DNA of 64,000 bases. Origin: Orenia marismortui DSM 5156 (lineage in GTDB: Bacteria; Bacillota; Halanaerobiia; Halobacteroidales; Halobacteroidaceae). Positions 16,205 through 53,485 of the stretch are shown in pieces. The stretch spans positions 170,334-234,333 of the forward strand of contig NZ_KB900623.1 in NCBI RefSeq assembly GCF_000379025.1. Reading direction: 5' to 3'. The stretch's first letter is position 1; every line of letters begins with the position of its first letter. The notes under the pieces were generated by a model. It saw only the letters and a program-made list of their open reading frames with translations. It was not told where the DNA came from and ran no database searches. The translations under genes were made by a program, and so were the position numbers.

Positions 16205-16240
16205 GTAGCCTCAGCAGTTAACTGCTGAGGCTACTTTATT
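16205..16240 (+). terminator. Intrinsic terminator after the spo0E-like gene
   Basis: A 30-bp perfect palindrome (arms 16205-16219 and 16220-16234), effectively an 11-13-bp stem with a tight loop, followed by TTTATT. Confidence 0.85.
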
Positions 16241-16850
16241 CACAAATATATAAGTTGAACTAATAATTTTCATAAAAAACTTGTTTTGTTAGGAATTTAA
16301 TCAATTTACACGAATAATTTAAAAAACTCAATTATATATAGAACATAAAGAATAATTTAAATTTAATTAGAAACAAATTGAAACCCTAAATTTTTTTAAC
16401 GCTGATTAAAATCTAATTAGATTCTGACCTTGTTTATTAGCTAGTAACCGTTAGATAATAGCCAATAGCATAATAACCCAAGAGTACTTCTTCAGTCATT
16501 TCTCTTTGGGTTTGAACAGATTAACCCTTCGCAAGATTTTAATTCTTAAAAATTACTAGAATTTAAATTCTAAGTATATAATATAAAATCTTTATTAGTT
16601 GCTATATAAATTAATTCTTCAGTTCTTTATTCGTGTTAATTTGTGGTTAAAAGTTATTTTAGTAAGTACTTATGTTTTAATGAAATTCTTTAATTCAATC
16701 TATATAGATTGAATTAAAGAATTTTTTTTATTAAACTACAAATACTAGTTTAGGAGTTAGGATAAAGACTTCATTAATTTAATTGGATTATTTTGGAAGG
16801 TGTTTCTTCTTTTATGGTGAATTAATTATTTAGTTTATGGAGGATATTAT
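16241..16850. other. Long non-coding spacer with repeat fragments
   Basis: No ORF with a ribosome-binding site was seen on either strand. The region holds fragments of a dispersed motif also present near 24900-25090 (TACACGAATAA near 16309, TTCGTGTTAATTTGTGG near 16629). There is a hairpin with AACCCAAGAG/CTCTTTGGGTT arms near 16477-16513, and the large palindrome at 16683. Confidence 0.5.
16683..16730 (+). terminator. Orphan terminator-like 42-bp palindrome
   Basis: Perfect inverted repeat at 16683-16724 (about a 19-bp stem) followed by a run of T residues. No coding gene lies directly upstream on the plus strand, so it either ends an unseen RNA, blocks read-through or is a repeat remnant. 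Confidence 0.55.
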
Positions 16851-27403: not shown

Positions 27404-27440
27404 AAAAAGTAAGAGGATTAATCCTCTTACTTTTTGTTTT
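27404..27440. terminator. Bidirectional terminator between pdp and cheX
   Basis: Perfect 32-bp inverted repeat, arms 27404-27419 and 27420-27435, with A-run on one side and T-run on the other, so it can act for both convergent transcripts. It overlaps the last codons and stop of cheX. Confidence 0.9.
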
Positions 27441-28104: not shown

Positions 28105-31074
28105 ATGAAAAGTGAGTTGGAGAAAGATAAATTAAGCTTGAAAAAGATTAGTTTTTATTTGTGTATTATTATCTTTATTATGCTGTTGACAGGAGTCTTT
28201 TATTTAAAGAGCTATTTTGATTCAGATAAATTAGCAAGTTTAGTTATACCTAAATTAGAAGAGAGTTTGAGTAGGGAGGTTAAAATTAGAGATATAAAAC
28301 TAAAGTTTATCGGTGGGATTGGTGTTAAGGTTGATGGAATTATTATTAGTAAGAGTTTAGATTTTGAGGAGGGTAATTTAGCGGAACTAGATAGCTTGAA
28401 TTTGGACTTTGCTCTATTACCTTTATTAAATAAAGAGGTTAAGATTAAAGATTTAACTCTAGTAAGGCCCATTATTTATTTAGAGAAGGATAGAGTGAGC
28501 AAGACAAATCATAATTCTAATAGCGATATTTCAAAATCTAACTCTAAAAAAGGAGTAAACCCTGTTTTTAATTTAGATAAATTGGAAATAGTTAATGCTC
28601 AGATAAAGTATATAGATAGGCAGAAAGGTTCAGTAATTGAATTAGATAATTTTAGTTCTGAATTGACTATTAGCTTAGATCAGGATAATAAATTATCTAC
28701 AGCAGGAAAATCAACAATAGGGAGGTTGAGTATTAATAATTCAAGTCAAACAGATTCAAATATTGAGGATCTAAATCTCTCTTTAAAGCATGATTTAATT
28801 TATAATCTAGCCAATAAGAAAGTAGAGGTTAGAAGATTTGATTTAGGCTTAGATCAATTAGATCTTAAAAGTCAATTTAATTTAATTCTAGGGAAGAATC
28901 AGCTGAAGATAGGAGATTTCAAAGCTAAAGCAGGAGATTCTAGCTTGAATTTTGATGCTGACTTACGTGAGACTGAAAACCCAAGCTTAGATATTAATTT
29001 AAATAGTGATATCTATTTAGAAGATTTGTTAGCAAAATTACCGATTGAATTTGCTAAAAACCTTTCTGGTAATATTAAAGCTGATTTGAGTCTTAAAAAT
29101 ATTAGAATCAATCAAGTTAAAGATAATCTCCAGAATATGAAATTATCAGGAGATATTAGCCTAGATAAGTTTAATCTAGATGATAAATTAGCTATCAAAG
29201 ATATTTCTGCTCTCGTTCAGATTAGTGAGCAAGAAATTAAAAGTGATGATCTTAAGTTAGCTATAGCTAAGGATATAGTTAATGCTAAGATCAAGATAAA
29301 TAAATGGAAAGAGCTATTAGCTGATATTTTAAATCAGAGAGAAGAAGTATCGGGAAGTATTAATTTAGATTTAGCAGCAGAAGGTCTGAATTTAGACAAA
29401 ATCTTAGACAATAAGAAAGATAATCAAGCCAAAGTAGATCCTTCTAAGGCTGAAGAAAAGAAAGTCTATCTTCCTAAATTGAACTTATATTCTAAGATTA
29501 ATATAGATAGCTTGGAGTATCAAGAAGATGAATATGAAGATATTATGGCTACTATAGAATTAGAAGATTCAATAGTCAATCTAGAAGAATTGAGCCTAAG
29601 TCAAGGTGATTCCAATTTACTTACTAGTGGAACTGTTGATTATAGTCAATTTAGTCTTACTAATGATTTTAAGTCGATAGATTTTGATTTAAATGTAAAT
29701 AGTGATATCAATTTAGCTAAGATTAGAAGGAATCTGCTTAAAGTTGTGCCAAAGTTGAAGAGATATGATTTTTCTGGAAGATTAAATTCTGACTTAAGTG
29801 CTGAGTTTCTCTTAAGTGATATTATGGAAGATCCACTCTCTAATTTAGATAAGATAAATATATATGGCGATATAGCAGTGAGTGGAAATAATATTGAACT
29901 TCCTCAAATGGAAAATACCATAGAGAGTTTAAAGGGGAAATTTAAATTTAATAAACAGAGCCTTGAAGTAAGAGATTTCAATTTCAATTTAGCTAAATCG
30001 GATCTATCAGCCAAAGTTTCTATCGGAGATTGGCGGGATACTTTGCTAGTCTTATTAAAGAAGAAAGAAGCTACTAATTCAAAAGCAGTTATTGAATTAA
30101 ATTCTAAATTAATTTCAATTGATGAGTTTTTAGCACTTCTATTTAATAATAGTCAAGGGGTCCAAAAGGAAGAAAAGGATAGCGGAGAAGTAAAGAAATC
30201 GACTCCAAAGATACCTATAATAATGCAGGCAGATATAGATGCTTTAAGGTATAGTAGCCTAGTAGTGAGTAATATTAATACTAAAGGAAGATTAAGTAAT
30301 GAGTTACTTGAAGTTGATAAGTTAAATTTAGGAATTAATGGGGGAAGTATTACTGCTAAAGGTCAGCTTGATTTTAGCCCAAATAAGCCAGAATATCAAG
30401 GTGATCTGAAGATTGATCAGATTGAGATTAATCAAGTTTTAAGTCTATTTACCAACTTTAATAATAAATTATATGGAAAAACTAATTTAACTACTAAATT
30501 TGGAGGTAGAGGTTTTTCTTTGGAAGATATACTAAATTCTCTTACATTGCAAGGAACAGCTTTGATAAAAGATGGAGAGCTAAAAGGTTGGGGATTAGTT
30601 AATAAATTAAATAATAGCTTCAACCTTTTTGATGAAGAGAGTTTAGCTTTTAAGGATCTTCAAGGAAATATTGATTTAAGAGATGGGAGATTATATTTAG
30701 ATGACTTTTCAGCCGATACTAAGCTTGGAGATATTAAGCTTGTTGGTTCATCAACTTTAGCAGGTAAAGTGGACTATCAATTAGATTATTTACTCTCTAA
30801 TAAAGAGTCTAAGGAGTTAAATTTGAATCATAAAGAATTATTCTATGCTCCAGATACTACTAGAGTTGAGTTGAACTTTAAAATTAAAGGAAGCGTCTTA
30901 AAGCCAGAATTTAGATGGGATAAAGGTGATATTGAGAAGAAAATTAAGGAGAAGGCAAAAGATAAAGTAGAAGAAAAGACCAAAGAAGAGATAGATAAAG
31001 CTAAGGATAAAATTAAAAAGGAATTAGAAGATAAGAAAGACGATTTAAAGGATATTTTTAAAGGGTTATTTTAA
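28105..31074 (+). CDS. AsmA family protein
   Basis: A 989-residue protein with a single N-terminal membrane anchor (about residues 15-37) and a long periplasmic body of repeated short beta-strand units. It ends with an AsmA-like C-terminal section (SLTLQGTALIKDGELKGW, GNIDLRDGRLYLDDFSADTKLGDIKL) and a highly charged Lys/Glu helix (about 945-985). AsmA-like proteins in diderm bacteria bridge the two membranes and move phospholipids to the outer membrane. A gene of this type in a spore-forming Firmicute points to an outer membrane. ATG follows AGGGGGAT. It is a single-gene unit ending in a very strong terminator. Confidence 0.85.
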   Translation: MKSELEKDKLSLKKISFYLCIIIFIMLLTGVFYLKSYFDSDKLASLVIPKLEESLSREVKIRDIKLKFIGGIGVKVDGIIISKSLDFEEGNLAELDSLNLDFALLPLLNKEVKIKDLTLVRPIIYLEKDRVSKTNHNSNSDISKSNSKKGVNPVFNLDKLEIVNAQIKYIDRQKGSVIELDNFSSELTISLDQDNKLSTAGKSTIGRLSINNSSQTDSNIEDLNLSLKHDLIYNLANKKVEVRRFDLGLDQLDLKSQFNLILGKNQLKIGDFKAKAGDSSLNFDADLRETENPSLDINLNSDIYLEDLLAKLPIEFAKNLSGNIKADLSLKNIRINQVKDNLQNMKLSGDISLDKFNLDDKLAIKDISALVQISEQEIKSDDLKLAIAKDIVNAKIKINKWKELLADILNQREEVSGSINLDLAAEGLNLDKILDNKKDNQAKVDPSKAEEKKVYLPKLNLYSKINIDSLEYQEDEYEDIMATIELEDSIVNLEELSLSQGDSNLLTSGTVDYSQFSLTNDFKSIDFDLNVNSDINLAKIRRNLLKVVPKLKRYDFSGRLNSDLSAEFLLSDIMEDPLSNLDKINIYGDIAVSGNNIELPQMENTIESLKGKFKFNKQSLEVRDFNFNLAKSDLSAKVSIGDWRDTLLVLLKKKEATNSKAVIELNSKLISIDEFLALLFNNSQGVQKEEKDSGEVKKSTPKIPIIMQADIDALRYSSLVVSNINTKGRLSNELLEVDKLNLGINGGSITAKGQLDFSPNKPEYQGDLKIDQIEINQVLSLFTNFNNKLYGKTNLTTKFGGRGFSLEDILNSLTLQGTALIKDGELKGWGLVNKLNNSFNLFDEESLAFKDLQGNIDLRDGRLYLDDFSADTKLGDIKLVGSSTLAGKVDYQLDYLLSNKESKELNLNHKELFYAPDTTRVELNFKIKGSVLKPEFRWDKGDIEKKIKEKAKDKVEEKTKEEIDKAKDKIKKELEDKKDDLKDIFKGLF

Positions 31075-31129
31075 AAGATAGGAGAAGAGGCTAAATTTAG
31101 CCTCTTCTCCTATCTTTTATCCTTTTTTT
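31072..31129 (+). terminator. Terminator after the AsmA gene (48-bp perfect palindrome)
   Basis: Perfect inverted repeat 31072-31119 beginning at the TAA stop of the AsmA gene, followed by a T-run. One of the longest perfect stems in the window. Confidence 0.9.
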
Positions 31130-40816: not shown

Positions 40817-41914
40817 ATGAAGGTTACTTTTCCTCATATGGGAACAATGTCAATTCCAGTGAAAACATTATTAACAGAATTAGGATTAGATGTTATTGTT
40901 CCTCCAGCCATTACCAAAAAAACTTTAGATTTAGGTGTAAAATATTCTCCTGAATTCGCTTGCTTACCTCTGAAATTAAATATTGGAAACTATATAGAAT
41001 CCCTGGAAAAAGGTGCTGATACTATTATCATGGGTGGTGGTGTTGGTCCTTGTCGTTTTGGATATTATGGTGAGGTACAAAAGGATATATTAAATGATCT
41101 AGGTTATAATTTTAATATGATAATATTTGAGCCTATTCAAGGGCACTGGAAAGAGTTTTATAAGAGTTTGAAAATGTTACTAGGAAATATTTCTATAATG
41201 AAAATCAAAACAGCTTGGGAACGGGCTTGGGTAAAGGCTAAGGCTGTGGATCATATTAATAGATTAACTAATCAACTTAGACCTTATTTAGTTAATAGAA
41301 AAGAGGCAACAAAGCTTTACAATCAGGGATTAACTATGATTGATAATGCTAATAATATTGATGAGACTAGAAAAGTTACAGATAAGATAGAAAATAGATT
41401 GAATTCTCTAGAACAGGTTCAAGGTTATACTCCTTTAAAAGTAGGGCTAGTTGGAGAGATCTATGTCTTATTAGAACCTTTCACTAATTTACATATAGAG
41501 GAGAAGTTAGGAGAATTGGGTGTTTTAGTTGATAAATCGGTCTATTTAACAGATTGGATAGAAGAACATCTATATATATCAATTTTTAGAAAGGATAAGA
41601 ATCGTCGTAGAATTGCGAAACTAGCTAAACCATATTTGAATTATTTTGTAGGAGGACATGGAGTAGAATCAGTAGGAGAAGCAGTATTATACTCTCAAAA
41701 AAATTTTGATGGAGTTGTTCATTTAGGTCCTTTTACTTGTATGCCTGAGATTATTGCACAAAGTATTTTGCCTACTGTAAGTAAAGATTTAGATATACCT
41801 ATATTATCTTTGAGTGTAGATGAGCACACAGGGGAAGCAGGCTATATTACTAGGTTAGAAGCTTTTGTTGATCTATTATCTCGTAAAGATAAAAAGAAGG
41901 AGAAGATAATATGA
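40817..41914 (+). CDS. Acyl-CoA dehydratase activase-related protein, subunit 2
   Basis: Second HgdB-like component of 365 residues. It begins KVTFPHMGTMSIPVKTLL, has EFACLPLKLNIGN and MGGGVGPCRFGYYGE (cluster Cys), and ends with the same SVDEHTGEAGYITRLEAFVD block as the previous gene, showing that the two are related. It starts directly at the stop of subunit 1 (GGAGGGGG upstream) and overlaps the ATPase gene by 4 bases. No acyl-CoA dehydratase or CoA-transferase gene is in the window, so the reduced partner is unknown. Confidence 0.8.
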   Translation: MKVTFPHMGTMSIPVKTLLTELGLDVIVPPAITKKTLDLGVKYSPEFACLPLKLNIGNYIESLEKGADTIIMGGGVGPCRFGYYGEVQKDILNDLGYNFNMIIFEPIQGHWKEFYKSLKMLLGNISIMKIKTAWERAWVKAKAVDHINRLTNQLRPYLVNRKEATKLYNQGLTMIDNANNIDETRKVTDKIENRLNSLEQVQGYTPLKVGLVGEIYVLLEPFTNLHIEEKLGELGVLVDKSVYLTDWIEEHLYISIFRKDKNRRRIAKLAKPYLNYFVGGHGVESVGEAVLYSQKNFDGVVHLGPFTCMPEIIAQSILPTVSKDLDIPILSLSVDEHTGEAGYITRLEAFVDLLSRKDKKKEKII

Positions 41915-42861
41915 AAGAAGGCTATATGGGAATAGATGTAGGTTCAGTTAGTACTAATATTGCGATTATTGATCAAGATAGAAAGGTATTAGAGAAATTG
42001 TATATTAGAACTGAAGGACAGCCAATTAGAGCTATTCAAGAAGGATTGATGAGAATAAAAGATTCAATAGATATAGAAATTCTAGGGGTAGGTACTACAG
42101 GAAGTGCTAGAAATTTAGCTGGAGTTATTGTAGGAGCAGATATAACTAAAAATGAGATAACTGCTCATGCAGTGGCTGCTTCAACAGTTGTACCTGAAGT
42201 TCAAACTGTACTAGAAATTGGAGGGCAAGATTCAAAAATAATAATTTTAAGAGATGGAGTTGTAGTTGATTTTGCTATGAATACAGTCTGTGCAGCTGGA
42301 ACAGGTTCTTTTTTAGATCAACAGGCAAGCCGCTTAAATATACCTATCCATGAATTTGGTAAAATTGCTTTAAAGGCTAATAATCCTGTAAGGATAGCAG
42401 GTCGCTGCTCTGTTTTCGCAGAATCTGATATGATACATAAGCAACAATTAGGGCATAATTTAGAAGATATAATAGCCGGACTTTGTCAAGCTTTAGTAAG
42501 GAATTATCTTAATAATGTAGGTAAAGGTAAAGAAATTCTGGGTCCAGTTGTCTTTCAAGGTGGGGTAGCAGCTAACAAAGGGATTAAAGAATCTTTTGAA
42601 AGTGAATTAGGATTAAAGGTGATTGTCCCTGAATATCATGATGTTATGGGAGCAATTGGCTCAGCAGTTTTAGCTTATGAAGCAGTCAAAGAGAAGGGGA
42701 AAAGCAATTTTAAAGGATTTGATACATCTGATTTTAATTATCATGTATCTAGCTTTGAGTGTGAAGGATGTCCAAATCATTGTGAGATTATCAATATTCA
42801 TCAAGAAGATGAGGTTATTGCTCGTTGGGGATCAAAATGCCCTAAGTGGGAAGCTGTATAA
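41911..42861 (+). CDS. Acyl-CoA dehydratase activase (BcrA/D-HgdC family ATPase)
   Basis: ASKHA-fold ATPase with a [4Fe-4S] cluster at the dimer interface that drives low-potential electrons into a partner enzyme. ATP site: YMGIDVGSVSTN at residue 5, IGGQDSKII near 105. The cluster ligands are the Cys of NTVCAAGTGSF and AGRCSVFAESD. A C-terminal extension (about 280-316) has five more Cys (CEGCPNHCE and SKCPKW), unlike simple HgdC, and looks like an extra metal site. ATGA overlap with subunit 2 implies coupled translation. Confidence 0.9.
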   Translation: MKEGYMGIDVGSVSTNIAIIDQDRKVLEKLYIRTEGQPIRAIQEGLMRIKDSIDIEILGVGTTGSARNLAGVIVGADITKNEITAHAVAASTVVPEVQTVLEIGGQDSKIIILRDGVVVDFAMNTVCAAGTGSFLDQQASRLNIPIHEFGKIALKANNPVRIAGRCSVFAESDMIHKQQLGHNLEDIIAGLCQALVRNYLNNVGKGKEILGPVVFQGGVAANKGIKESFESELGLKVIVPEYHDVMGAIGSAVLAYEAVKEKGKSNFKGFDTSDFNYHVSSFECEGCPNHCEIINIHQEDEVIARWGSKCPKWEAV

Positions 42862-42910
42862 ATATAATGTGTCTTGTATTTTTCAAAATGATTTCTAGAT
42901 TATAAATTTC

Positions 42911-42939
42911 TTGACAATGGTACTATAATTATTTATAAT
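42911..42939 (+). promoter_or_regulatory. Consensus sigma-A promoter of the efflux cluster
   Basis: TTGACA at 42911-42916, exactly 17 bases, TATAAT at 42934-42939: both hexamers match consensus. Such a strong promoter usually needs a repressor, which fits the palindrome directly downstream. Confidence 0.9.
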
Positions 42940-42941
42940 AT

Positions 42942-42977
42942 AAAACAACAGAACTGACTAGTCAGTTCTGTTGTTTT
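42942..42977. promoter_or_regulatory. 36-bp perfect palindrome, probable TetR-family operator
   Basis: Perfect inverted repeat centred on CTGACTAGTCAG, starting two bases after the -10 box and covering the predicted transcription start near 42946. The core resembles operators of TetR/AcrR repressors. The TetR gene at 51827 closes the same gene cluster. It might also act as a terminator for the upstream activase genes, since T residues follow the right arm. Confidence 0.65.
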
Positions 42978-43109
42978 GATTAATTTTCTAGTTTGAAGTA
43001 TATCTTCTATAACTTATATAAGACTGTAAGGGGTGAGATAATAGTGATATAGTTGAATTTTAATAAAGAAGATAACTAATAATTAAGATAAAATGGAGGT
43101 GCTCTTTTG

Positions 43110-45401
43110 ATGAGAAAAAATATAGTATTAAGTCTAGTATTTTGCATGTTATTTAGCTTAATAATATCAAATTTAGCTTATGCAGAAGAAAGTTATCAAT
43201 CTGAGTTTGATAAAGTAAATATTGGTATAATTTATGAAGGCAATGATAAATTTAATTTAAAATTAAAAAAGAGGATTGAAAAGGAGGTATTAGAATTATT
43301 ATCTGATAAATATCAAGTTGAATTCAGTGAGTTTAGAGCTGATGATTTAGCAGTTCATAATATAGTAATGGATAAGTTATTGGCTAATCAGGAGATAGAT
43401 GTTATTATCACAGCAGGAATTTTGGGTTCTTACTCTGCCATAAGTAGAGATAATTTTAGCAAAGCAGTTATAGCTCCTTTTATAATTGATGATGATACTG
43501 TCAATTTTAGTATCAAAGAAGATAAGAGTGGAGTTGAAAATTTAAATTTTATAACTGTTAATTCTTTTTTGAAAAGGGATATTAAGTTTTTTAAGAGATT
43601 AACTAATTTTGATAAGATGACTTTTATAACTCCTAAGAATCTTATTATGGGAAATGAAAAAATAGTGGAGCTATTAAATCAAGAAGCAAAAGAAAATAAT
43701 ATAAAGGTAGATTACATATATACAAACAATTCAAAAAAAGATATTATAAAAGAATTAGATAAGGTTGAAGTAGCTTATATTTTCCCACTTATATCAGAGG
43801 ATAAAGGATCTTTGCTACTTGCTGAATTGAATCAACGAAAAATTCCTACCTTTACATTAGCAGATATTATGAGGTATAAAGAAGGATTTTTAGCAGGATA
43901 TTCTCATAATAAAGAAATAAATGCAAGGGCAAGAGCTGCAGCACTTAATCTAGAACTGATCTTGGCAGGAGAAGAAGCTGCTGATTTACCGATTTATATT
44001 GATAAAAGTGATGAGGAATTTGTTATCAATATGAAAGTGGCACATGAGATAGGATTTTTACCTGACTGGGATATTTTAGAGACTGCTAAGTTAATTAATC
44101 AGGATAATTCAGTCAAAGAAGAATTAACTTTACAAGAATCGATAGAAACTGCTCTTGATAATAATTTAGATTTACAAGCAGCAGAAAAAGATTTAGACAT
44201 AGCTCAAGATAATTTAAAACAAGCTAGCAACAAAAGAAAGCCGAAATTTGATTTAAATACTACCTATGCTCAGGTAGATGAAACTAGAGCAGGAAAAGGA
44301 ATTGCATCAGAACAGAAGTTAACTGGTGGGCTAAAGCTTGAACAAGTCTTATTTAGTGAAGATCTAAATGCTAATATAGATATCAAGGGAGATTTATACA
44401 AACAAAGTAAAGTAGAGTTAAAGAAGAAGAAATTAGATTTGATTTTAGATACTATTAATTCTTATATTCAAACATTAAAGGTAAGGGCAGATATGAGGTT
44501 ACAGGAAGAGAATATTCAATTAATTAAAGATAATCTAAATATAGCCAAAACTAAAAATGAAATTGGGGTTTCAGGACCTGCTGATATATATAGATGGGAA
44601 AGTCAACAGTCAGTAGGGTTAATGAACTTATCACAAGCAGAAAGTCAATTAAGGATGGTTAAGGATAATCTAAAAAGAACTTTAAACCTACCTTTAACAG
44701 AGGATATTGAACTAACAGAAATAGATCAACAGAACCTATTCCAAGAATTGTATAAAGAATTTAAAATTGATAATTCCTGGGAATTAGAAAATTTAAGTGA
44801 GAAACTGGTTAAAGAAAGTATTCAAAATTCACCAGAGGTAGAAAGTATAGATTATTTAATCAAAGTCAAAGAGAGAGAATATCAAATGAAGAAAAGAAGA
44901 TATTACCTACCTCAAATAGGATTATCTGCACAATATGATACTTATTTAGAAGAATGGGGTATAGATGGTCCAAGTGGGGCAGATGCTCATGGTGAAGATG
45001 AGTGGAGTATTGGTATTCAAGCCTCTTTTCCATTATATGATGGTGGTAACAAGAAGGTAGAACTTTCTAAGGTTAAAAAAGAGATTCAACAGTTAAAAAC
45101 AACTAAAAAATCTTTGGTAGATAAATTATCACAAAATCTTAGAAATAAACTAACAGTTGTTAATACAGAGTATAGAAAGAATAAATATGCTAAGGATGCA
45201 GTGGATACAGCATATAAAAATTTAGAGTTGGTTAAAGATGCTTATTCTAAAGGTCTTGTGTCAGTTGCTGAACTTTTGGATGCTCAATCAGCAGTAATAA
45301 ATGCTAAGAGGCAAGAGTTTGTAACCAAATATAATTTCTTGAATTCAGTAGCTGAGGTACAAAGAGCACTTGGAAATTTTGATATTATTGATATTAACTA
45401 G
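43110..45401 (+). CDS. TolC-family outer-membrane factor fused to an ABC-substrate-binding-like domain
   Basis: Exported protein (signal peptide about residues 1-26, ending LAYA) with two unlike halves. Residues about 35-330 resemble ABC_sub_bind proteins (PF04392): VNIGIIYEGND, DVIITAGILGSYSA, and a closing VINMKVAHEIGF section that matches their NLKTAKALGL ending. Residues about 345-763 are a TolC-type outer-membrane efflux domain with two long helical repeats (LTLQESIETALDNNLDLQAAE; AYSKGLVSVAELLDAQSAVINAK) and beta-strand blocks such as SIGIQASFPLYDGG. ATG at 43110 is used; TTG at 43107 is equally possible after GGAGGT. It leads an operon with an adaptor and an RND permease. The added domain may gate or select substrates (inference). 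Confidence 0.85.
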   Translation: MRKNIVLSLVFCMLFSLIISNLAYAEESYQSEFDKVNIGIIYEGNDKFNLKLKKRIEKEVLELLSDKYQVEFSEFRADDLAVHNIVMDKLLANQEIDVIITAGILGSYSAISRDNFSKAVIAPFIIDDDTVNFSIKEDKSGVENLNFITVNSFLKRDIKFFKRLTNFDKMTFITPKNLIMGNEKIVELLNQEAKENNIKVDYIYTNNSKKDIIKELDKVEVAYIFPLISEDKGSLLLAELNQRKIPTFTLADIMRYKEGFLAGYSHNKEINARARAAALNLELILAGEEAADLPIYIDKSDEEFVINMKVAHEIGFLPDWDILETAKLINQDNSVKEELTLQESIETALDNNLDLQAAEKDLDIAQDNLKQASNKRKPKFDLNTTYAQVDETRAGKGIASEQKLTGGLKLEQVLFSEDLNANIDIKGDLYKQSKVELKKKKLDLILDTINSYIQTLKVRADMRLQEENIQLIKDNLNIAKTKNEIGVSGPADIYRWESQQSVGLMNLSQAESQLRMVKDNLKRTLNLPLTEDIELTEIDQQNLFQELYKEFKIDNSWELENLSEKLVKESIQNSPEVESIDYLIKVKEREYQMKKRRYYLPQIGLSAQYDTYLEEWGIDGPSGADAHGEDEWSIGIQASFPLYDGGNKKVELSKVKKEIQQLKTTKKSLVDKLSQNLRNKLTVVNTEYRKNKYAKDAVDTAYKNLELVKDAYSKGLVSVAELLDAQSAVINAKRQEFVTKYNFLNSVAEVQRALGNFDIIDIN

Positions 45402-45419
45402 TTTTAAAGGAGGAAGAAG

Positions 45420-46646
45420 ATGAAAAAAATAAAAGCTTTATTAATATTATTAACATTAGCTGTTTTATCCTTGATAATAGCAGGATGTGGCAATAGTGTA
45501 GCAAAGGAAGCAGCAGTTAAGAAGGTTATCAGGCCCGTTGAGTATCAGAAAGTAGAATTAAAGAAGGTGGACTTCACTTACGGTTATTCTGGAACTTTAG
45601 AGCCAAATGTAAGTATTAATGTTAGTTTTAGGATACCAGGGAAGATAGAAAATATATTTGTAGAGGTTGGTAATAAAGTAGATGAGGGTCAATTATTAGC
45701 TGAGTTAGATAAGACCGATTATAAATTACAAGTAAAAGCAATGGAGTCTAACATAAGTCAAGCTAAAGCTGGAGTAAGTAGTTCCTTGGCAAAGGTTTCA
45801 CAAGTAGAATCTGCGATAGCTAGTGTAGAAGCACAGTATAGTGAAGCAACTAGTAGCTTTAATAGAATTAAAAGATTATATCAAAATAATAATGTATCTA
45901 AAGCAGATTATGATAAAGCTAAAGCTGCCAAAGAATCTGTTGAAGCAAAATTAAAACAGGTTAAAGCTCAATTAGCAGAAGCTAAAGAAGGTGTGGAAAA
46001 TGCTAGAGCAAGAGTTGATTCCTATCAAAGTCAATTGGAATTAGCTAAATTAAAGTTAAGCTATACTGAGCTAAAGGCACCTATGTCAGGAACTATTGTC
46101 AAGAAAGATTATGAACCAAATGAGAATATAAGTGCAGGTAGGCCTGTATTTACACTTGATGGTAATGGTGGATTTGAGGTAAAGGTATTTGTTGATGAGA
46201 ACTTAATCTCCAAGATAGAGGAAGGTCAGCAAGTAGCAATAGAAGTTTTAGCTCTTAATAAAAGTAATTTGCAAGGAAGAGTAGATGAGATCGGAAGGCA
46301 AATTAAGGGTTATAAAGGAAACTATCCACTAACTATAAGAATCACTAAAGGTCTAAAAGAACTAAGAGCTGGAATGACAGCAAAGGTTTATTTTAGTTTT
46401 TCAGAGGATAAAAACAAATTGATTTTACCAGTATCAGCAGTAATTGCTAATGATGAAGGTAATTTTGTATATACATTAAGCAAATTTTCTGATGGATATG
46501 CAAAAGTAAAGAAAGTTAGAGTAGAGACAGGAAAACTTAACTCTAAAGGTATAGAAATTTTAAATGGATTAAAGATAGGAGAACTTGTAGTAACTAAAGG
46601 TGCAACTCAAATAGTAGACAATCAAGAAGTTCGATTACTAAACTAG
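45420..46646 (+). CDS. RND efflux periplasmic adaptor lipoprotein
   Basis: Membrane-fusion protein that links the RND pump to the TolC channel. A lipoprotein signal ends with IIAGC (lipid-bearing Cys near residue 23). A biotinyl-lipoyl half-motif (FRIPGKIENIFVEVGNKVDEG) is followed by a long coiled-coil hairpin (about 95-215; KAAKESVEAKLKQVKAQLAEAKEGV) and the second lipoyl half (LSYTELKAPMSGTIVKK), then beta-barrel and MP domains. Length of 408 residues is normal. AAAGGAGG lies 9 bases upstream of the ATG; it is 18 bases after the TolC-type gene. Confidence 0.95.
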   Translation: MKKIKALLILLTLAVLSLIIAGCGNSVAKEAAVKKVIRPVEYQKVELKKVDFTYGYSGTLEPNVSINVSFRIPGKIENIFVEVGNKVDEGQLLAELDKTDYKLQVKAMESNISQAKAGVSSSLAKVSQVESAIASVEAQYSEATSSFNRIKRLYQNNNVSKADYDKAKAAKESVEAKLKQVKAQLAEAKEGVENARARVDSYQSQLELAKLKLSYTELKAPMSGTIVKKDYEPNENISAGRPVFTLDGNGGFEVKVFVDENLISKIEEGQQVAIEVLALNKSNLQGRVDEIGRQIKGYKGNYPLTIRITKGLKELRAGMTAKVYFSFSEDKNKLILPVSAVIANDEGNFVYTLSKFSDGYAKVKKVRVETGKLNSKGIEILNGLKIGELVVTKGATQIVDNQEVRLLN

Positions 46647-46662
46647 AAGGGAGGGCAAATAA

Positions 46663-49600
46663 ATGGGATTTACTGAATTAGCAATTAAGAAGAAGTATGT
46701 AACTTTTACTCTAATAGCCTTATTGATTATAGGTGGAGTTGGAGCTTATTTTAATCTGCCAAAATCTGAAAATCCAGGTTTTATTGTTAAAACAGCTACG
46801 ATAATAACTTATATGCCAGGAGCAAGTCCTGATAAAATTGAAAATTTAATTTCTGATAAAATTGAGGAAGCAGTCAAGGAAATACCAGAATTAGATTATG
46901 TAGAAAGTACAAATAAAACCGGTTTTTCTTTAGTAAAAGTAAATATAGAGTCACAATATAAAGATTTGAGACCAATCTGGGATAGCATGAGAAGAAAGGT
47001 TAATGCAATTAAATCTCAATTACCATCAAATAGCATAGGGCCTATTATTAATGATGAGTATGGAGATGTTTTTGGAACTATAATCGGAATTACTGGAGAA
47101 GATTATAGCTATGCTGAGCTTGAAGATATGGTTGAAGATATGCGTGATGAACTCTTAACTATAGATGAGGTTGCTAAAGTAGATATAGTTGGACAGCAAG
47201 ACAAGAGAATTTTCATAGAATATGATAATGATAAGTTATCTGAGATGAATCTTTCTCCATATCAGTTACAACAGATGTTAGCAGGAAGAAATATTATATT
47301 ATCAGGGGGGAATATAGAATTAGGATCAGAAAGGATTCCTCTAGAGCCAACAGGTGATTATAATGATGTAGAAGAGATTAAAAATACTTTAATTTCACTT
47401 CCTGATGGTAATATGATTTATCTAAAAGATATAGCAGATGTTAGAGAAGGATATATAGATCCAGCTCGTGCTAAGATGAGAGTAGATAATAAGCCAGCTT
47501 TAGGATTGGCTATCTCTATGAAAGATGGAGGTCAAATTACTAAATTAGGAAAGAAGGTTCAAGACAAGGTAGAGTATTTCAAGACTCAGTATCCAATAGG
47601 TGTAAATTTTGATTTTATCTCTTTACAATCAAAATTAGTTGAAAAGAAGGTAAGTAGTTTTACTGCAAACTTAATTCAAAGTACCTTAACAGTTATAGCT
47701 GTATTACTAATATTTTTAGGATTAAAAGAAGGAGTTTTAGTATCTACCTTAGTTCCGGTAGTAATTGCTATTACCTTTCTTTTGATGTCAATCTTTGGAA
47801 TAGGAATAGATACAATCTCCTTAGCAGCTTTAATAATATCTTTAGGAATGTTAGTTGATAACTCTGTTGTTATGGCAGAATCAATTATAGCTAAATTAGA
47901 AGAGGGAATGGGTAAATTAGAAGCAGCTATTTCTTCAGCTAAGGAGTTAAAGGTTCCATTATTAGTAGCTTCTTTAGTAACTTGTGCTGCATTCTCTCCA
48001 ATTGGATTTGCTCAATCTAATGTAGGAGAGTTTGCTGGTGGAATCTTTAAGGTAGTAGCCTTAGCTTTAATGACATCTTGGGTATTATCTTTGACTATGG
48101 TTCCTTTGTTTGCCGTCTTATTTTTGAAGATTGATAAGAAAGAAGAGGCATATAATGGGAGAATATATAAAGGTCATGGTAAATTACTATTAAGTCTAAT
48201 GAAGCATAAAGTGTTATTTGTAATCTTAATGATCTTCATAGTATTTTTAGGAGTTAAAGGAATGGGCTTAGTGCCTAAAGTATTTATGCCTAAAGATAAG
48301 AAGACTGTGATGACCTTTGAAGTTAAGATGCCTAAAGGGACTTCAATTAGAAGAACAGAAATGGTTGCCAGAAATATAGATGAGTATATAGAAGATAAAT
48401 TAAAAGTAAAGCCAGAACAAGAAGAAGTAAGCTTCTTTAAACAGCTATTATCTGGTGGAACTACAGTAAAATATAAAGATGAGGGAATATTAAATTGGGG
48501 AACTTTTATAGGAGAAGGTGCTCCAAGATTTACCTTAGCTTATAGTGCTGAATTAAATAGCCCTGAATATATTTACTATTTAATTAACACAACTTCTGTA
48601 GAGGTAATTAAAGATTTAATTCCTAAATTAGAAGGATATACTATTAATAAATTTCCTGATAGCGAAGTTAAAGCTCAAGAATTAGAGATCATGCCTGTGG
48701 GAAAACCAATTCAAATTAGAGTCTCTGGTAGGGAAATGGATAAGCTTTATGATATAGTTCATTCTGTCAAAGATAAGCTTAGAACAATTGATGGAGTTGA
48801 AGACATTAGTGATGATTGGGGATTGAAAACTAAGAAACTAACTATAAATATAAATCAAGATCGACTAGAAAAAGCTGGTCTAAGTAATAGAGATGTAGCA
48901 ATTTCTTTGCAAACAGTCTTAGATGGTATTCAGTTAACAGAATATAGAAAAGATAATGATATAATACCAGTATTATTAAGAGATAAGCAGAGTAAAAATA
49001 TTGATATCTCTACTTTAGAGACTACTAAAGTTTATTCTCAAAGAACAGGAAAATCTGTTTCACTAAAACAGATAGCAGAAATCAAGAATTTATGGGAGCC
49101 TTCTATGATTTATAGAAGGGATGGTATTAGAACGATTACTGTCAAAGCAGATACGAAGGAAGGTTATACAGCAGCAGAAATTAATAATCAATTAAAACCA
49201 TGGCTTGATCAGGAGAAATCAAGTTGGGGAAGAGGATATAACTATGCTTTTGGTGGAGAATATGAAAGTTCTACAGAAGCTAATGAATCTATTGGAGCAC
49301 AGCTACCTATAACTGGATTAGTTATCTTGTTATTGCTTGTTATTCAATTTAATTCTTATAAGAAACCATTGACAATTATATTAATAGTACCACTTACAAT
49401 TATTGGAGTAGCTATTGGTTTGCTAGTTACTGGAAAAGCTTTTGGATTTATGGAAATATTAGGGCTTATATCTTTGGTGGGAATAATTATTAATAATTCG
49501 ATTGTACTCATTGATAGAATTGGTATAGAATTAGATGAATTTAATAGAAGTCCACAAGATGCTATTTTAGAAGCTGCTAAAAGAAGATTACGTCCAATCT

Positions 49601-49815
49601 TCTTGACTAGTGCAACAACTATTTGTGGTTTATTACCACTTTGGTTTAGTGGTGATGCACTATTTGGTGGAATGGCGGTATCTTTAATCTTTGGATTAGC
49701 CTTTGGGTTATTAATAACTCTTGTAGCAGTTCCTGTAGTTTATTCTATAGTTTTTAATATTAATTATAAGAACTATGAGTATAAGATTGATGATAATATC
49801 TCTATAGAGGGATAA
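46663..49815 (+). CDS. RND-family efflux permease (AcrB-like)
   Basis: Proton-driven inner-membrane pump of 1050 residues with the usual duplicated topology: helix 1 at residues 13-30, periplasmic loop to about 330, six helices (about 335-490), second loop from helix 7 (about 515-535) to about 870, and the last helices (870-1030). Motif GMLVDNSVVMAESI in helix 4 contains the relay Asp, and GIIINNSIVLIDRI is its counterpart in the second half. AcrB's two neighbouring Asp are represented by one here. The pump belongs to the HAE-1-like group that exports drugs, dyes or lipids; substrate unknown. GGGAGGGC lies upstream of the ATG. Confidence 0.95.
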   Translation: MGFTELAIKKKYVTFTLIALLIIGGVGAYFNLPKSENPGFIVKTATIITYMPGASPDKIENLISDKIEEAVKEIPELDYVESTNKTGFSLVKVNIESQYKDLRPIWDSMRRKVNAIKSQLPSNSIGPIINDEYGDVFGTIIGITGEDYSYAELEDMVEDMRDELLTIDEVAKVDIVGQQDKRIFIEYDNDKLSEMNLSPYQLQQMLAGRNIILSGGNIELGSERIPLEPTGDYNDVEEIKNTLISLPDGNMIYLKDIADVREGYIDPARAKMRVDNKPALGLAISMKDGGQITKLGKKVQDKVEYFKTQYPIGVNFDFISLQSKLVEKKVSSFTANLIQSTLTVIAVLLIFLGLKEGVLVSTLVPVVIAITFLLMSIFGIGIDTISLAALIISLGMLVDNSVVMAESIIAKLEEGMGKLEAAISSAKELKVPLLVASLVTCAAFSPIGFAQSNVGEFAGGIFKVVALALMTSWVLSLTMVPLFAVLFLKIDKKEEAYNGRIYKGHGKLLLSLMKHKVLFVILMIFIVFLGVKGMGLVPKVFMPKDKKTVMTFEVKMPKGTSIRRTEMVARNIDEYIEDKLKVKPEQEEVSFFKQLLSGGTTVKYKDEGILNWGTFIGEGAPRFTLAYSAELNSPEYIYYLINTTSVEVIKDLIPKLEGYTINKFPDSEVKAQELEIMPVGKPIQIRVSGREMDKLYDIVHSVKDKLRTIDGVEDISDDWGLKTKKLTININQDRLEKAGLSNRDVAISLQTVLDGIQLTEYRKDNDIIPVLLRDKQSKNIDISTLETTKVYSQRTGKSVSLKQIAEIKNLWEPSMIYRRDGIRTITVKADTKEGYTAAEINNQLKPWLDQEKSSWGRGYNYAFGGEYESSTEANESIGAQLPITGLVILLLLVIQFNSYKKPLTIILIVPLTIIGVAIGLLVTGKAFGFMEILGLISLVGIIINNSIVLIDRIGIELDEFNRSPQDAILEAAKRRLRPIFLTSATTICGLLPLWFSGDALFGGMAVSLIFGLAFGLLITLVAVPVVYSIVFNINYKNYEYKIDDNISIEG

Positions 49816-49822
49816 ATAAATC

Positions 49823-49854
49823 AGAAAAGAGACCTAGCTAGGTCTCTTTTCTAA
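49823..49854 (+). terminator. Terminator-like palindrome after the RND permease
   Basis: Perfect 30-bp inverted repeat (arms 49823-49837 and 49838-49852) with T residues within the right arm but only a weak tail. May permit partial read-through into the patatin gene 20 bases later. Confidence 0.6.
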
Positions 49855-49872
49855 CATGGGGGTGATGTTATT

Positions 49873-51714
49873 ATGTCAAAGAAGTTTAGAATATATTTAA
49901 CTGTTTTATTATTAGTTTCTCTTAATTCAACTTATGTTTTGGCAAATATAAATGCAGATAGTAATTTGACTAGAGTGGTCAAAGATGAGGAAATATATTT
50001 AGTAGAAGATTATCAGCGCTTTAAATCATCTTCCCGTCCAAAAGTTGCAGTCGCATTGACAGGTGGAGGGGCTAAAGCTTTTTTTAATATAGGTGTGATT
50101 AAAGCTTTAGAGGAGGAAGATATTCCAATAGATTTAATTGTAGGAACTAGTATGGGATCGATTATTGGAACTATGTATGGTAGTGGAATTTCTATTGAGC
50201 AGATTGAAGAGATAGTAACAGAAGCTCCCTTTACTAATTTATTGGAAATGAATTTTATAGATAATGACTCTTTTTTTGAGACTGCTAAAGTTAATAAGTT
50301 TCTTGAGAATATAGCACCTTATAAGAGGTTAGAAAAATTTCCTATACCTACAGCCTTATTAACTTTAGAAGTAGATAGTGGGCATAAGTATATAATTACT
50401 ACCGATAGAATATCCAAAGTAGTACAAGCTTCCTATGCTATTCCTCATTTCTTTCCACTTTATCAGATGGAGGATAAATATTTTGCTGATCCTGGTATTT
50501 TAGAAAATTCCCCTGCTAAGGCAGCTAAAGCTTTAGGGGCAGATTTTGTGATTGCTACTACGTATACAGCTGATAAAAGTCATGATAGTTATGAAACTCC
50601 AAATAAGATAATTAATCGATATGTAGATATAGTCTCAGAGAAGAATAATAAGAGAATACTTAACAATTATTCAGATATAATAGTTGAAGCTGATATTAGT
50701 GGTTACTCTTTTTTTGATTTTAGTAGTGCTGGTGAATTAATTGAAATTGGATATCAAAGCACTAAAGATCAGATTTCAAAACTAAAAGTGGCCTTAAAAT
50801 CTAAAAGAATTCCTTTGAGAAAAAGAGTAGCTAGAAAGAAGTTAGCTTTAGATCAAGAGTTTAATGATATAAAATATGATAGAATTTTAGTTTCTTCTAT
50901 TATATTTAATCCAGTTCTTCATTATGGGCAAGACTATTCTTTCTTTAAACAAGATTTGTTAAGAAGTTATTTAAATATTCCCCAATATGGCTTTGAGTTT
51001 GAAAAAGATAAGGTTGATTTTAAATTTCTAGCAACTAATAATGTTACTAATGATTTAGAAGCAGAACTTAGGTGGAAGAAGTTAACTCAAAACACTGATC
51101 TTATAGCTAAGACCAGAATTGAGTCTAATGAGACTGATGATGGAGAGATAGGGATTAGATATTATGAGGATAATTATTTTTGGAGTGCAGGGGTAGGAAG
51201 TATTAATAATAATAGTTATGTTTTTGCAGATGCTAAGTATGAGCTAGGTTTTAATAGATTAGATTTAGAAGGAGAAATTGATTTATTCTTTGATGAAGCT
51301 GGTAAAGTTCCTAAAATTTTAATTTCTAAGAAGACAGTTTCTAAATTAAGCGATTCTTGGCTTTTAAAACCGAAAGTAGTATTTAATAATAGTGAGCTTA
51401 TAGAATCTCCTCTGATTTATCGAGGATCTACTCCAGATGATTTTAGTAGGTTTCAATTTTCTTTAGATTATGCTTATACCCATCAGTTTGTTAAAAGCAT
51501 AAAATTGACAAAAATTATTGATATTAAAGATATTGGCGCTTATTTATTCACAGATTATTTAAATGATAAAGAATCCTCTCTAGCTTATGGGGTTGGTTTT
51601 AATGGAGATTTTTATTTATTGGGACTGAAACCCTTTAGGTTGGATTGTTATCTATCTTATGATCAGAATAATGAGGAGTCTATTATTAGGGCTAATTTAA
51701 ATTATAACTTTTAA
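49873..51714 (+). CDS. Patatin-like phospholipase with predicted C-terminal outer-membrane beta-barrel
   Basis: Exported protein (signal peptide about residues 1-24). The patatin domain (about 55-310) has the oxyanion loop LTGGGAKAFFNIG, nucleophile elbow GTSMGS (Ser93) and the catalytic-dyad Asp in FADPGIL (near residue 206; DPG rather than the usual DGG). The remaining 270 residues alternate polar and hydrophobic positions in strand-like units and end in Phe (ANLNYNF), the mark of an outer-membrane barrel. This layout recalls the PlpD type (type Vd) secreted patatins, though no clear POTRA domain is seen. ATG follows GGGGGTGATG. Stands between the RND genes and tetR. Confidence 0.82.
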   Translation: MSKKFRIYLTVLLLVSLNSTYVLANINADSNLTRVVKDEEIYLVEDYQRFKSSSRPKVAVALTGGGAKAFFNIGVIKALEEEDIPIDLIVGTSMGSIIGTMYGSGISIEQIEEIVTEAPFTNLLEMNFIDNDSFFETAKVNKFLENIAPYKRLEKFPIPTALLTLEVDSGHKYIITTDRISKVVQASYAIPHFFPLYQMEDKYFADPGILENSPAKAAKALGADFVIATTYTADKSHDSYETPNKIINRYVDIVSEKNNKRILNNYSDIIVEADISGYSFFDFSSAGELIEIGYQSTKDQISKLKVALKSKRIPLRKRVARKKLALDQEFNDIKYDRILVSSIIFNPVLHYGQDYSFFKQDLLRSYLNIPQYGFEFEKDKVDFKFLATNNVTNDLEAELRWKKLTQNTDLIAKTRIESNETDDGEIGIRYYEDNYFWSAGVGSINNNSYVFADAKYELGFNRLDLEGEIDLFFDEAGKVPKILISKKTVSKLSDSWLLKPKVVFNNSELIESPLIYRGSTPDDFSRFQFSLDYAYTHQFVKSIKLTKIIDIKDIGAYLFTDYLNDKESSLAYGVGFNGDFYLLGLKPFRLDCYLSYDQNNEESIIRANLNYNF

Positions 51715-51776
51715 ATTATCTTAATTTCTTTTATAATTTAATTAGTAGTAGTTTATTTATAATATAAAAAAACTGA

Positions 51777-51804
51777 TTGTTTAATAATTTTTGTTAATTA
51801 TAAT
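51777..51804 (+). promoter_or_regulatory. Candidate promoter of the tetR gene
   Basis: TTGTTT at 51777-51782, 16 bases, TATAAT at 51799-51804. Moderately good sigma-A match. The CTGACTAGTCAG operator core of 42942 is not repeated here. Confidence 0.4.
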
Positions 51805-51826
51805 TAAAAGTTAAGGAGTTGATATA

Positions 51827-52396
51827 ATGCATCCCAAAAAAGAGAAGATATTTGAGGCTGCGATAGAGAAGTTTGCTAAAAAGGGTACAACTTCTACAAC
51901 GATGCAAGAGATTGTGAAAGCAGCAGGTATAGGAAAAGGAACTTTATATCGTTATTTTGAAAATAAAGAAGATCTAATTTTTTCTTTGATTGAGTTTAGG
52001 TTTAATATAATATTTGAAAAGGTTAAGGCTGATATAATTAAATTAGATGATCCTATTCAAAAAATAGAGAAAGTAATAGATGCACATTTGAACTTTTGTG
52101 CTATTCATGGAGCAAATAAATTTTTAATCCGAGAAGTTTGGGGATATAAAAGTAAATTTAAGAATGCTATTCAAGAGATGATGTCGCTTTACACTGGATT
52201 TATTAAAGATATTATTGAAGAAGGGATAGAACAGGGTAAATTTAAAGAAGTAAATGCGCTTAATGCAGCTACTGCTTTAATTGGGATGATTGATATAACT
52301 ATTATACGTTGTATGATGTTTGAAGAAGATTTTTTAACAAATAAAATTAGAGAAGATATTGTTGAAATTTATTTAAATGGAATGGTTATAGACTAA
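51827..52396 (+). CDS. TetR/AcrR-family transcriptional repressor
   Basis: DNA-binding repressor of 189 residues. The N-terminal helix-turn-helix (about 10-55) reads TTMQEIVKAAGIGKGTLYRYFENKEDLI, the classical TetR pattern. The C-terminal helical domain (about 65-189) would bind a small ligand. AAGGAG lies 6-8 bases upstream of the ATG. It closes the efflux cluster, so its most likely target is the palindrome at 42942 over the consensus promoter; this is inference from context. Followed by a terminator. Confidence 0.92.
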   Translation: MHPKKEKIFEAAIEKFAKKGTTSTTMQEIVKAAGIGKGTLYRYFENKEDLIFSLIEFRFNIIFEKVKADIIKLDDPIQKIEKVIDAHLNFCAIHGANKFLIREVWGYKSKFKNAIQEMMSLYTGFIKDIIEEGIEQGKFKEVNALNAATALIGMIDITIIRCMMFEEDFLTNKIREDIVEIYLNGMVID

Positions 52397-52445
52397 AAAA
52401 AATTTAACTTAATTATAATTTTTATTACAAGATATAGATTTAACA

Positions 52446-52471
52446 GAAAGCAGCTAATGCTTTCTTTTTTC
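52446..52471 (+). terminator. Intrinsic terminator after tetR
   Basis: Stem GAAAGCA/TGCTTTC with a GCTAA loop and six T residues. Confidence 0.85.
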
Positions 52472-52545
52472 TTATTGTTATTTAGATCTAATTATGTTTT
52501 AATATAATAGATAGATACTGATACAGTTCAGGAGATAGGGGATAG

Positions 52546-52573
52546 GAGATAAGAGATAAGAGATAAGAGATAA
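52546..52573 (+). repeat. Tandem 7-bp repeat (GAGATAA x4)
   Basis: Four exact copies of GAGATAA, with degenerate GGAGATAGGGGATAG text just upstream from 52531. Confidence 0.85.
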
Positions 52574-52682
52574 GAGGATCTTAGTAGGCATCAATCCTTA
52601 AAAAATTTATTGCAATAAAGCACTATAAAACAGCACATTTCTTAGATTATTTAATTATAATACAGGTGACCATCCTTATAAG

Positions 52683-52732
52683 AATTAATATATGTAGGGA
52701 ATGGTCGCGACCATTCCCTACATATATTAATT
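52683..52732. repeat. 50-bp perfect palindrome
   Basis: Each 25-base arm is the exact complement of the other, meeting at TCG/CGA. The GC-rich centre GTAGGGAATGGTCG is flanked by AT-rich ATTAATATAT ends. No T-run or gene end justifies a terminator; it resembles a REP-like dispersed palindromic unit. Confidence 0.85.
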
Positions 52733-52970
52733 TTTTATTTTGAATTAGACTTTGAAGAGAGTAATTGTAGCGAAGCGTTAATAAGACTTGACCTCTAAAT
52801 CTGATCAATCAATTGTTGTCTAATTGCGATAGTTTAAGGGGGAAATATAGGTTTTATGATCTAGGTAAACAACTTAATTTATCACCTGTTACTCGTCATT
52901 TGTTACTGTTTCTTTATATTTACAATGTTTTAATAGAAATCTATAATAAAATAAGTGGAGGGATTAAGCA

Positions 52971-53354
52971 ATGGCAAAAAGGATTATTAATACTGATAAA
53001 GCACCACAGGCTTTAGGAGCTTATTCTCAAGCAACTGAGCTAAATGGTACATTATTTGTTTCAGGTCAAATTGCTATTGATCCAGAAAGTGGAGAAGTAA
53101 TTACTGCTAATGTGGGGATTCAAACTAGACAGATTATGGAGAACTTAAAGGCTATTTTATTGGAGGCTGGATATGATTTTGAAGATGTAATGAAAGTAGA
53201 AGTGTTCATCTCTGATATGGATGATTTTGAACAAATCAATGAAATTTATGGTGATTATTTTAAGCGAGAAGAACCTGCTAGAGCTTGTGTAGAGGTAAGT
53301 CGATTGCCTAAAGATGTAAAGGTAGAGATAGCTTTAGTAGCTATGAAGGGTTAA
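52971..53354 (+). CDS. ridA: RidA family enamine/imine deaminase
   Basis: Hydrolyses reactive 2-aminoacrylate and similar enamines/imines formed by PLP enzymes. The family is recognised by APQALGAYSQA at residue 10, FVSGQIAIDPESG, QTRQIMENLKAIL, MKVEVFISDM and the active-site Arg in EPARACVEVSRLPKDVKVEI. The 127-residue trimer-forming length is standard. GGAGGGATTAAGC precedes the ATG. Single gene with no close neighbour in its strand unit. Confidence 0.95.
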   Translation: MAKRIINTDKAPQALGAYSQATELNGTLFVSGQIAIDPESGEVITANVGIQTRQIMENLKAILLEAGYDFEDVMKVEVFISDMDDFEQINEIYGDYFKREEPARACVEVSRLPKDVKVEIALVAMKG

Positions 53355-53485
53355 AAGTAGTAACGAGTGATGAGTGAGTAGTAAGAAGTTAGTAATTAGG
53401 AATAAAGAGTAGGGTCAAGTTGTTACTCGACCTTTAGTTTAATAATATAATAACGTATAATTTCTAGAAAGTAAGGTGCAAACAG

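Follow-up and report, generated by a model that had tools for sequence, protein, structure and literature searches.

TetR-family repressors and their operators form regulatory modules of RND efflux operons, with AcrR, MtrR and TtgR as type cases. In the betaproteobacterium Castellaniella defragrans, the AmeABCD system for monoterpene export combines an HAE3-type RND protein with a LolA-superfamily protein and a DUF1302 outer-membrane protein, according to the accessible part of its description (PMC6394551). In E. coli, pseudo-symmetrical promoters that are bidirectional are described in the accessible part of a further study (PMC12825309). Here, we analyse a stretch of 64,000 nucleotides from Orenia marismortui DSM 5156 (the window; plain positions count from its first letter), in which an RND efflux operon ending in a TetR gene is headed by a consensus promoter and a long palindrome, and compare this locus with those of related genomes. 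A literature search, with subscription journals mostly outside its scope, returned no title or abstract opening that deals with this operator or with a TetR at the Orenia atp operon.

Results

The layout reported in the earlier note is exact. On the + strand, a -35 box TTGACA (42911–42916) and a -10 box TATAAT (42934–42939) separated by 17 nt make up a 12-of-12 sigma-70 match, the only one listed in 41900–53400, and two bases (AT) later begins a perfect palindrome of 36 bp (42942–42977, no strand) with 18-nt arms and with CTGACTAGTCAG at its centre (42954–42965). The pattern TTGACA-N17-TATAAT occurs 86 times in the 3.46-Mb genome vs 4 times for a reversed control pattern. The palindrome lies 81–116 bases beyond the stop of an activase gene (gene end 42861) and 130 bases upstream of the start at 43107. 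Transcription should begin at about 42946–42947, which would put the start site in the left arm; the inverted repeat overlaps the promoter/start region of the operon that it heads, where a TetR operator would be looked for. The part of the palindrome that is conserved in relatives is the 20-mer AGAACTGACTAGTCAGTTCT (42950–42969, no strand). The genome search for further CTGACTAGTCAG sites that the earlier note had called for gave one exact occurrence and five others with one base different. Rfam returned six matches at E<=1 over 42850–43130, all below gathering scores.

The genes downstream are all on the + strand. They encode an outer-membrane efflux protein (43107–45401; OEP in Pfam, with an ATG at 43110 as alternative start), an RND periplasmic adaptor (45420–46646; RND_mfp, and TIGR01730 above cut-off), an RND permease (46663–49815; ACR_tran), a patatin-like phospholipase identified by Pfam scan (49873–51714) and a TetR-family regulator (51827–52396), the proposed binder of 42950–42969. 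With OEP, RND_mfp and ACR_tran encoded together, the operon specifies a tripartite RND efflux pump. A perfect palindrome of 30 bp (49823–49852, no strand) between the permease and patatin genes is a possible partial terminator or RNA hairpin and could weaken read-through to the TetR gene.

Two further features of these genes were observed. The first 340 amino acids of the outer-membrane efflux protein (43107–44130) form an N-terminal domain without a Pfam match; its model is weak (mean pLDDT 61.9) and resembles periplasmic-binding-protein folds (best 3lft, E 1e-7, TM 0.28–0.33), so that the protein may be a TolC-type channel with a binding domain attached. The same genome holds a second cassette (L204, 1525–9074) with a MarR-type gene, an MMPL permease, two more genes and a patatin that is 51% identical to that of the window.

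Length alone does not mark out the palindrome at 42942–42977, since it is one of seven gapless perfect palindromes with arms of 15–25 in the window. The six others, mostly intergenic, are found at 16205–16234, 16683–16724, 27404–27435, 31072–31119, 49823–49852 and 52683–52732. None with arms of at least 15 arose in 200 dinucleotide shuffles of the window, where the largest reached 13, so chance does not account for them. The seven palindromes thus suggest a tendency of Orenia DNA to form or retain long perfect palindromes, chiefly in intergenic stretches. Gapless arms of at least 14 number 10, 4 and 5 in the three Orenia genomes (99.5, 28.5 and 38.0 kb compared) and 0–2 in each of nine relatives, of which G004 (2 in 14.5 kb) is as dense as Orenia, in stretches that were chosen for other reasons and make up a small sample.

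The link between palindrome and regulator comes from comparison. The compared set consisted of twelve genomes with a close ortholog of the TetR at 51827 (G000–G011), of which G000, the genome of the window, G001 and G002, probably Orenia metallireducens MSL40, are Orenia; each has a single match at E<=1e-20, and G012 has none at this threshold. In 11 of the 12, a promoter and an operator like AGAACTGACYRGTCAGTTCT head an operon that ends in the TetR ortholog. With TTGACA and a 17-nt spacer throughout, the 11 promoters reach 11–12 of 12, each taken as the best-scoring within about 38 end positions and three spacers, and their -10 boxes read TATAAT (eight), TATACT (two) or TATATT (one), with the operator centre 15–21 bp further on. 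The 20-mer AGAACTGACYRGTCAGTTCT, with YR at its centre, is exact in six linked genomes, has 1–3 mismatches in four and more than three in G002; three-mismatch matches alone mean little, as a reversed control also matched in G005, G006 and G007. Ten of the 11 contain the 14-mer ACTGACYRGTCAGT without mismatch, and G004 differs from it at one position. Among the Orenia genomes, total arm length varies (18, 12 and 7 pairs), and relatives do not share the outermost 8 bases on either 18-nt arm of the window. On the sequences compared, the conserved unit is not the 36-bp length of the palindrome; its outer arms are peculiar to this species and might additionally terminate transcription.

The genome outside this pattern, G006, keeps the TetR without an operator before it and without MMPL cargo at E<=1e-30; its only site, elsewhere, has three mismatches, and at that stringency the reversed control matches once in this genome too. 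In G002, the TetR frame (L113, 1318–1890) shows a stop at codon 31, immediately ahead of the recognition helix; this stop may be real or a sequencing error. The core operator of G002 remains. We do not claim that the operator decays in G002 as a consequence of this stop, as the arms are equally short in G010 and G011, which have open TetR frames.

The same association is seen on a wider scale. Among 61 genomes, the exact 14-mer occurs in 20 and a TetR homolog (E<=1e-20) in 21, with both in 17 (Fisher p about 1e-8, relatedness ignored), and the reversed 14-mer has no match in any of the 61. Homologs outside G000–G011 are 30–37% identical and may not be orthologs. The 26 exact sites head a TetR-ending operon (10), stand just before a TetR gene (8), before atp genes (3), before a radical-SAM gene (2) or before MMPL-type pump genes on contigs other than that of the TetR (2), or fall within a gene (1). 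Three genomes have the site without a homolog (G031, G038 and G056), and there it lies just before another TetR gene followed by a gene for 448–470 amino acids. The four genomes with a homolog and without an exact site are G004 (one mismatch), G006, G057 and G022, whose TetR gene begins 8 bases away from a contig end. Four genomes of family f5 have the site immediately in front of the TetR gene, and in one of them (G015) adaptor-like, RND and further genes then follow, so the site stays with the regulator when gene order changes. Across species, then, the site is conserved together with its regulator, being linked in 11 of 12 close genomes and present as the exact 14-mer in 17 of 21 genomes with a homolog.

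Between operator and regulator, the cargo varies. It is an AcrB-type tripartite pump with patatin in the three Orenia genomes, an MMPL permease 58–72% identical to that of G005 in the genomes of the G005 type (G004, G005, G008, G009, G010 and G011) and a longer MMPL permease, about one third identical to that of G005, in G003 and G007. These assignments come from a Pfam scan for the genes of the window and the G005 trio (MMPL, LolA_like, DUF1302), and from gene order, size and protein matches for the other cassettes. On this comparison, the predicted operator and its regulator persist across cargo of different kinds. The longer permease is also found in Orenia (G000 and G002; 63–65% identical to those of G003 and G007), where it lies behind a MarR-type gene in a locus in which no near-site was found. 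In G009, conversely, a pump with 60% identity to the permease of the window lies beside a divergent gene 31% identical to the Orenia MarR protein. From these two cases, regulators and pumps appear to have been re-paired among relatives.

The regulator itself matches TetR_N (PF00440) at 61.6 bits vs a cut-off of 24 and carries the YsiA-like domain TetR_C_4. Helix residues G36, K37, G38, T39, Y41 and R42 are invariant in 11 orthologs, of which ten are only 43–61% identical to the protein of the window. A dissimilar TetR with another recognition helix, linked to a pump in G001, has no such site at its locus, only a two-mismatch match. The best sequence match among solved structures is Bacillus FadR (3whb, E 2.2e-19), and the model aligns at TM 0.87 with 3whc, a structure with stearoyl-CoA, while 3crj comes first by E-value. 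The fold of the model thus resembles that of acyl-CoA-binding FadR repressors. Membership of FadR proper was rejected on the NCBIfam profile NF053878 (85.6 bits vs a cut-off of 200), and the protein falls far below the cut-offs for MtrR (57.3 of 280) and AcrR (40.4 of 271). Together with cargo that touches envelope lipids or hydrophobic compounds (patatin; MMPL and LolA-like proteins, related to the monoterpene exporter AmeABCD, PMC6394551), the likeness to FadR favours an acyl or hydrophobic compound as ligand, a proposal to which we give about an even chance. Induction by the substrate of the pump had been suggested before; by analogy, the C-terminal domain points to a fatty-acyl or similar ligand instead.

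The ATP synthase operon is preceded by a second promoter-operator. The three Orenia genomes searched each have the exact 14-mer ACTGACYRGTCAGT after an exact TTGACA-17-TATAAT and ahead of ATPase_gene1, ATP-synt_I and the ATP synthase cluster (the AtpB query gene lay outside the Pfam scan). In G000, the operator is at C1:1141157–1141176 (L160, 3661–3674), about 450 bases upstream of the first gene, and in the other two genomes at L161, 2829 and L162, 2987. A search of the 3.6-kb atp loci in ten relatives, allowing up to two mismatches, gave no such site. The arms of the atp site have 16, 23 and 20 pairs, and all three species retain the 15 innermost pairs (the central one not counted), seven of which show changes on both sides. 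Since letters far from the centre are not conserved, contact with a protein does not explain the paired arms. An RNA hairpin, or copying between the arms of the palindrome, would explain them, and the matched changes suggest an added role at the RNA level. Two observations count against the TetR of the window as binder here: the flanks AAAACTGAC resemble the promoter regions of another regulator, TetR2 (G000:C1:78010–78582), and G002 keeps the site despite its interrupted TetR frame. For the latter reason, and since similar cores occur in TetR2 regions, we make no firm assignment of the atp site to the TetR at 51827.

Some of the promoters are themselves symmetrical. At both operator sites of G001 and G002 (L112, 2016–2063; L113, L161 and L162), they are near or full palindromes centred 8 bases in, with 22, 19, 16 and 16 of 22 positions paired; 30 consensus promoters of the window's genome (G000) give at most 15. 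These are candidates for bidirectional promoters. The two operator-site promoters of the window's genome have 13 and 12 of 22 paired, the 13 of the window's own promoter lying within background.

Discussion

We predict, with a probability of roughly 0.9, that the core of the palindrome (42950–42969) is the operator of the TetR repressor encoded at 51827. The earlier note had this TetR act at the palindrome, and the comparison bears out the tie between the two, with the same promoter-operator-operon layout in 11 of 12 genomes; the repression itself is a prediction from that layout. A TetR dimer on 42950–42969 would cover the start site downstream of the perfect sigma-70 promoter and block RNA polymerase, shutting off the genes for outer-membrane factor, adaptor, RND permease and patatin. 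Its own gene would also be repressed if the operon is read to its end, giving negative feedback. Release would most likely follow when an acyl chain or similar amphiphile, building up as export lags, binds in the FadR-like C-domain. Binding, repression, read-through to the TetR gene and the ligand are steps that we infer, and the arrangement of promoter, operator, operon and TetR is established by comparison. Overall, this is a well-supported prediction of an ordinary kind, a TetR operator over a strong promoter.

Some observations count against this reading. The exceptional genomes are among them: G006 keeps its TetR with no operator before it, G022 and G057 lack an exact site despite their homolog, and the core operator persists in G002 despite the stop at codon 31. 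In addition, TGACYRGTCA-like sites precede several different TetR genes, and another TetR could bind. The site might then be a TetR-type operator with, e.g., TetR2 as its main binder, an alternative that we consider unlikely. The promoter region of TetR2 carries CTGACCAGTCAG in G000 and G002, CTGACTAGTCAG in G003 and ACTGACCGGTCAGT in G009, and the single pattern across 61 genomes fits several TetR genes. However, the operon headed by the site in 11 genomes is that of TetR1 (the ortholog of 51827), not TetR2, the TetR2 promoter of G001 lacks the site although both other sites of this genome are intact, and the TetR2 region keeps a different box, TTGACT-GTCAA, in G000–G003. In the TetR2 promoter regions (L239, L240, L241 and L243), this box has the form TTGACT-N4/5-GTCAA and is joined to CTGACYRGTCAG in G000, G002 and G003. 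Cross-regulation of TetR2 by the TetR of the window is possible.

It is still less probable that the palindrome serves as an intrinsic terminator for the activase cluster that lies upstream, perhaps bidirectionally, with the promoter coincidental or reading through it. In the window, it does scan as terminator-like (17 pairs counted, 4 T in the 8 bases after the stem), the leader folds with a long perfect hairpin, other long perfect palindromes are intergenic as well, and no other terminator-like site is listed between 42861 and 42911. In all eight non-Orenia linked genomes, however, the palindrome lies between the -10 box and an RBS-like sequence, 12–28 nt from the operator centre, and has 0–3 T in the next 8 bases. 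This position of the RBS means that the palindrome there is not merely the terminator of the upstream gene, and rules out a terminator-only reading for the conserved element. Moreover, 8 of 11 genomes have the activase gene immediately ahead of the cluster and the other three (G004, G007 and G010) a different gene, an additional palindrome upstream of the promoter could do the job in G004, G007 and G008, and conservation extends beyond structure to the sequence. Termination is possible as a second role of the palindrome in this species.

The least probable reading, in which the palindrome acts mainly as an RNA hairpin that guards the very 5´ end of the mRNA against decay, would fit a transcript beginning inside the stem at about 42946, the fold of the 36 nt (-20.4 kcal/mol; leader z-score -3.42) and the 15 of 15 inner pairs kept at the atp site, but the arms are not kept at the window site, the palindromes of G010 and G011 fold at only -2.8 kcal/mol and the conserved letters fit recognition by a protein.

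Read as a TetR operator, the element may have targets beyond the efflux genes, given the like site before the ATP synthase operon. One tentative and rather doubtful idea is that the TetR controlling envelope export in Orenia is wired to the ATP synthase as well, such that one repressor, perhaps lipid-sensing, would tune both an ion-driven exporter and the enzyme by which that gradient of ions is built up or used. If the atp site is real, envelope export would be tied to ATP synthase expression. More generally, the palindrome yields a supported operator-regulator pair in a lineage of diderm Firmicutes, together with a defined 20-bp code, and the joint conservation of regulator and operator alongside pumps of different kinds offers a clean case for the study of how a regulator comes to govern a new transport system. 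Of special note are the apparent change of pump partners and the unexplained twin site at the ATP synthase operon.

Several known systems share parts of this arrangement. The near-palindromic promoters at both operator sites of G001 and G002 recall the pseudo-symmetrical promoters of E. coli, as far as these are described in the accessible part of the source (PMC12825309), unlike the promoter of the window with its 13 of 22 paired. Bacillus FadR (3whb, 3whc, 5gp9) is the best solved-structure match to the TetR at 51827, which differs in being linked to a pump and in staying below the NCBIfam cut-off. The accessible description of AmeABCD (PMC6394551) matches the cargo behind the operator in G005 (MMPL, LolA_like and DUF1302), the sole non-Orenia cassette in the Pfam scan; that system has a further periplasmic protein, AmeC, whereas the Orenia cargo is an AcrB-type tripartite pump with patatin. 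As for modules of the AcrR, MtrR and TtgR type, they likewise link a TetR to RND pump genes and place a palindromic operator over the promoter/start region. In contrast to them, the regulator gene here comes last in the operon, the operator is AGAACTGACYRGTCAGTTCT, and the module heads differing pumps in relatives.
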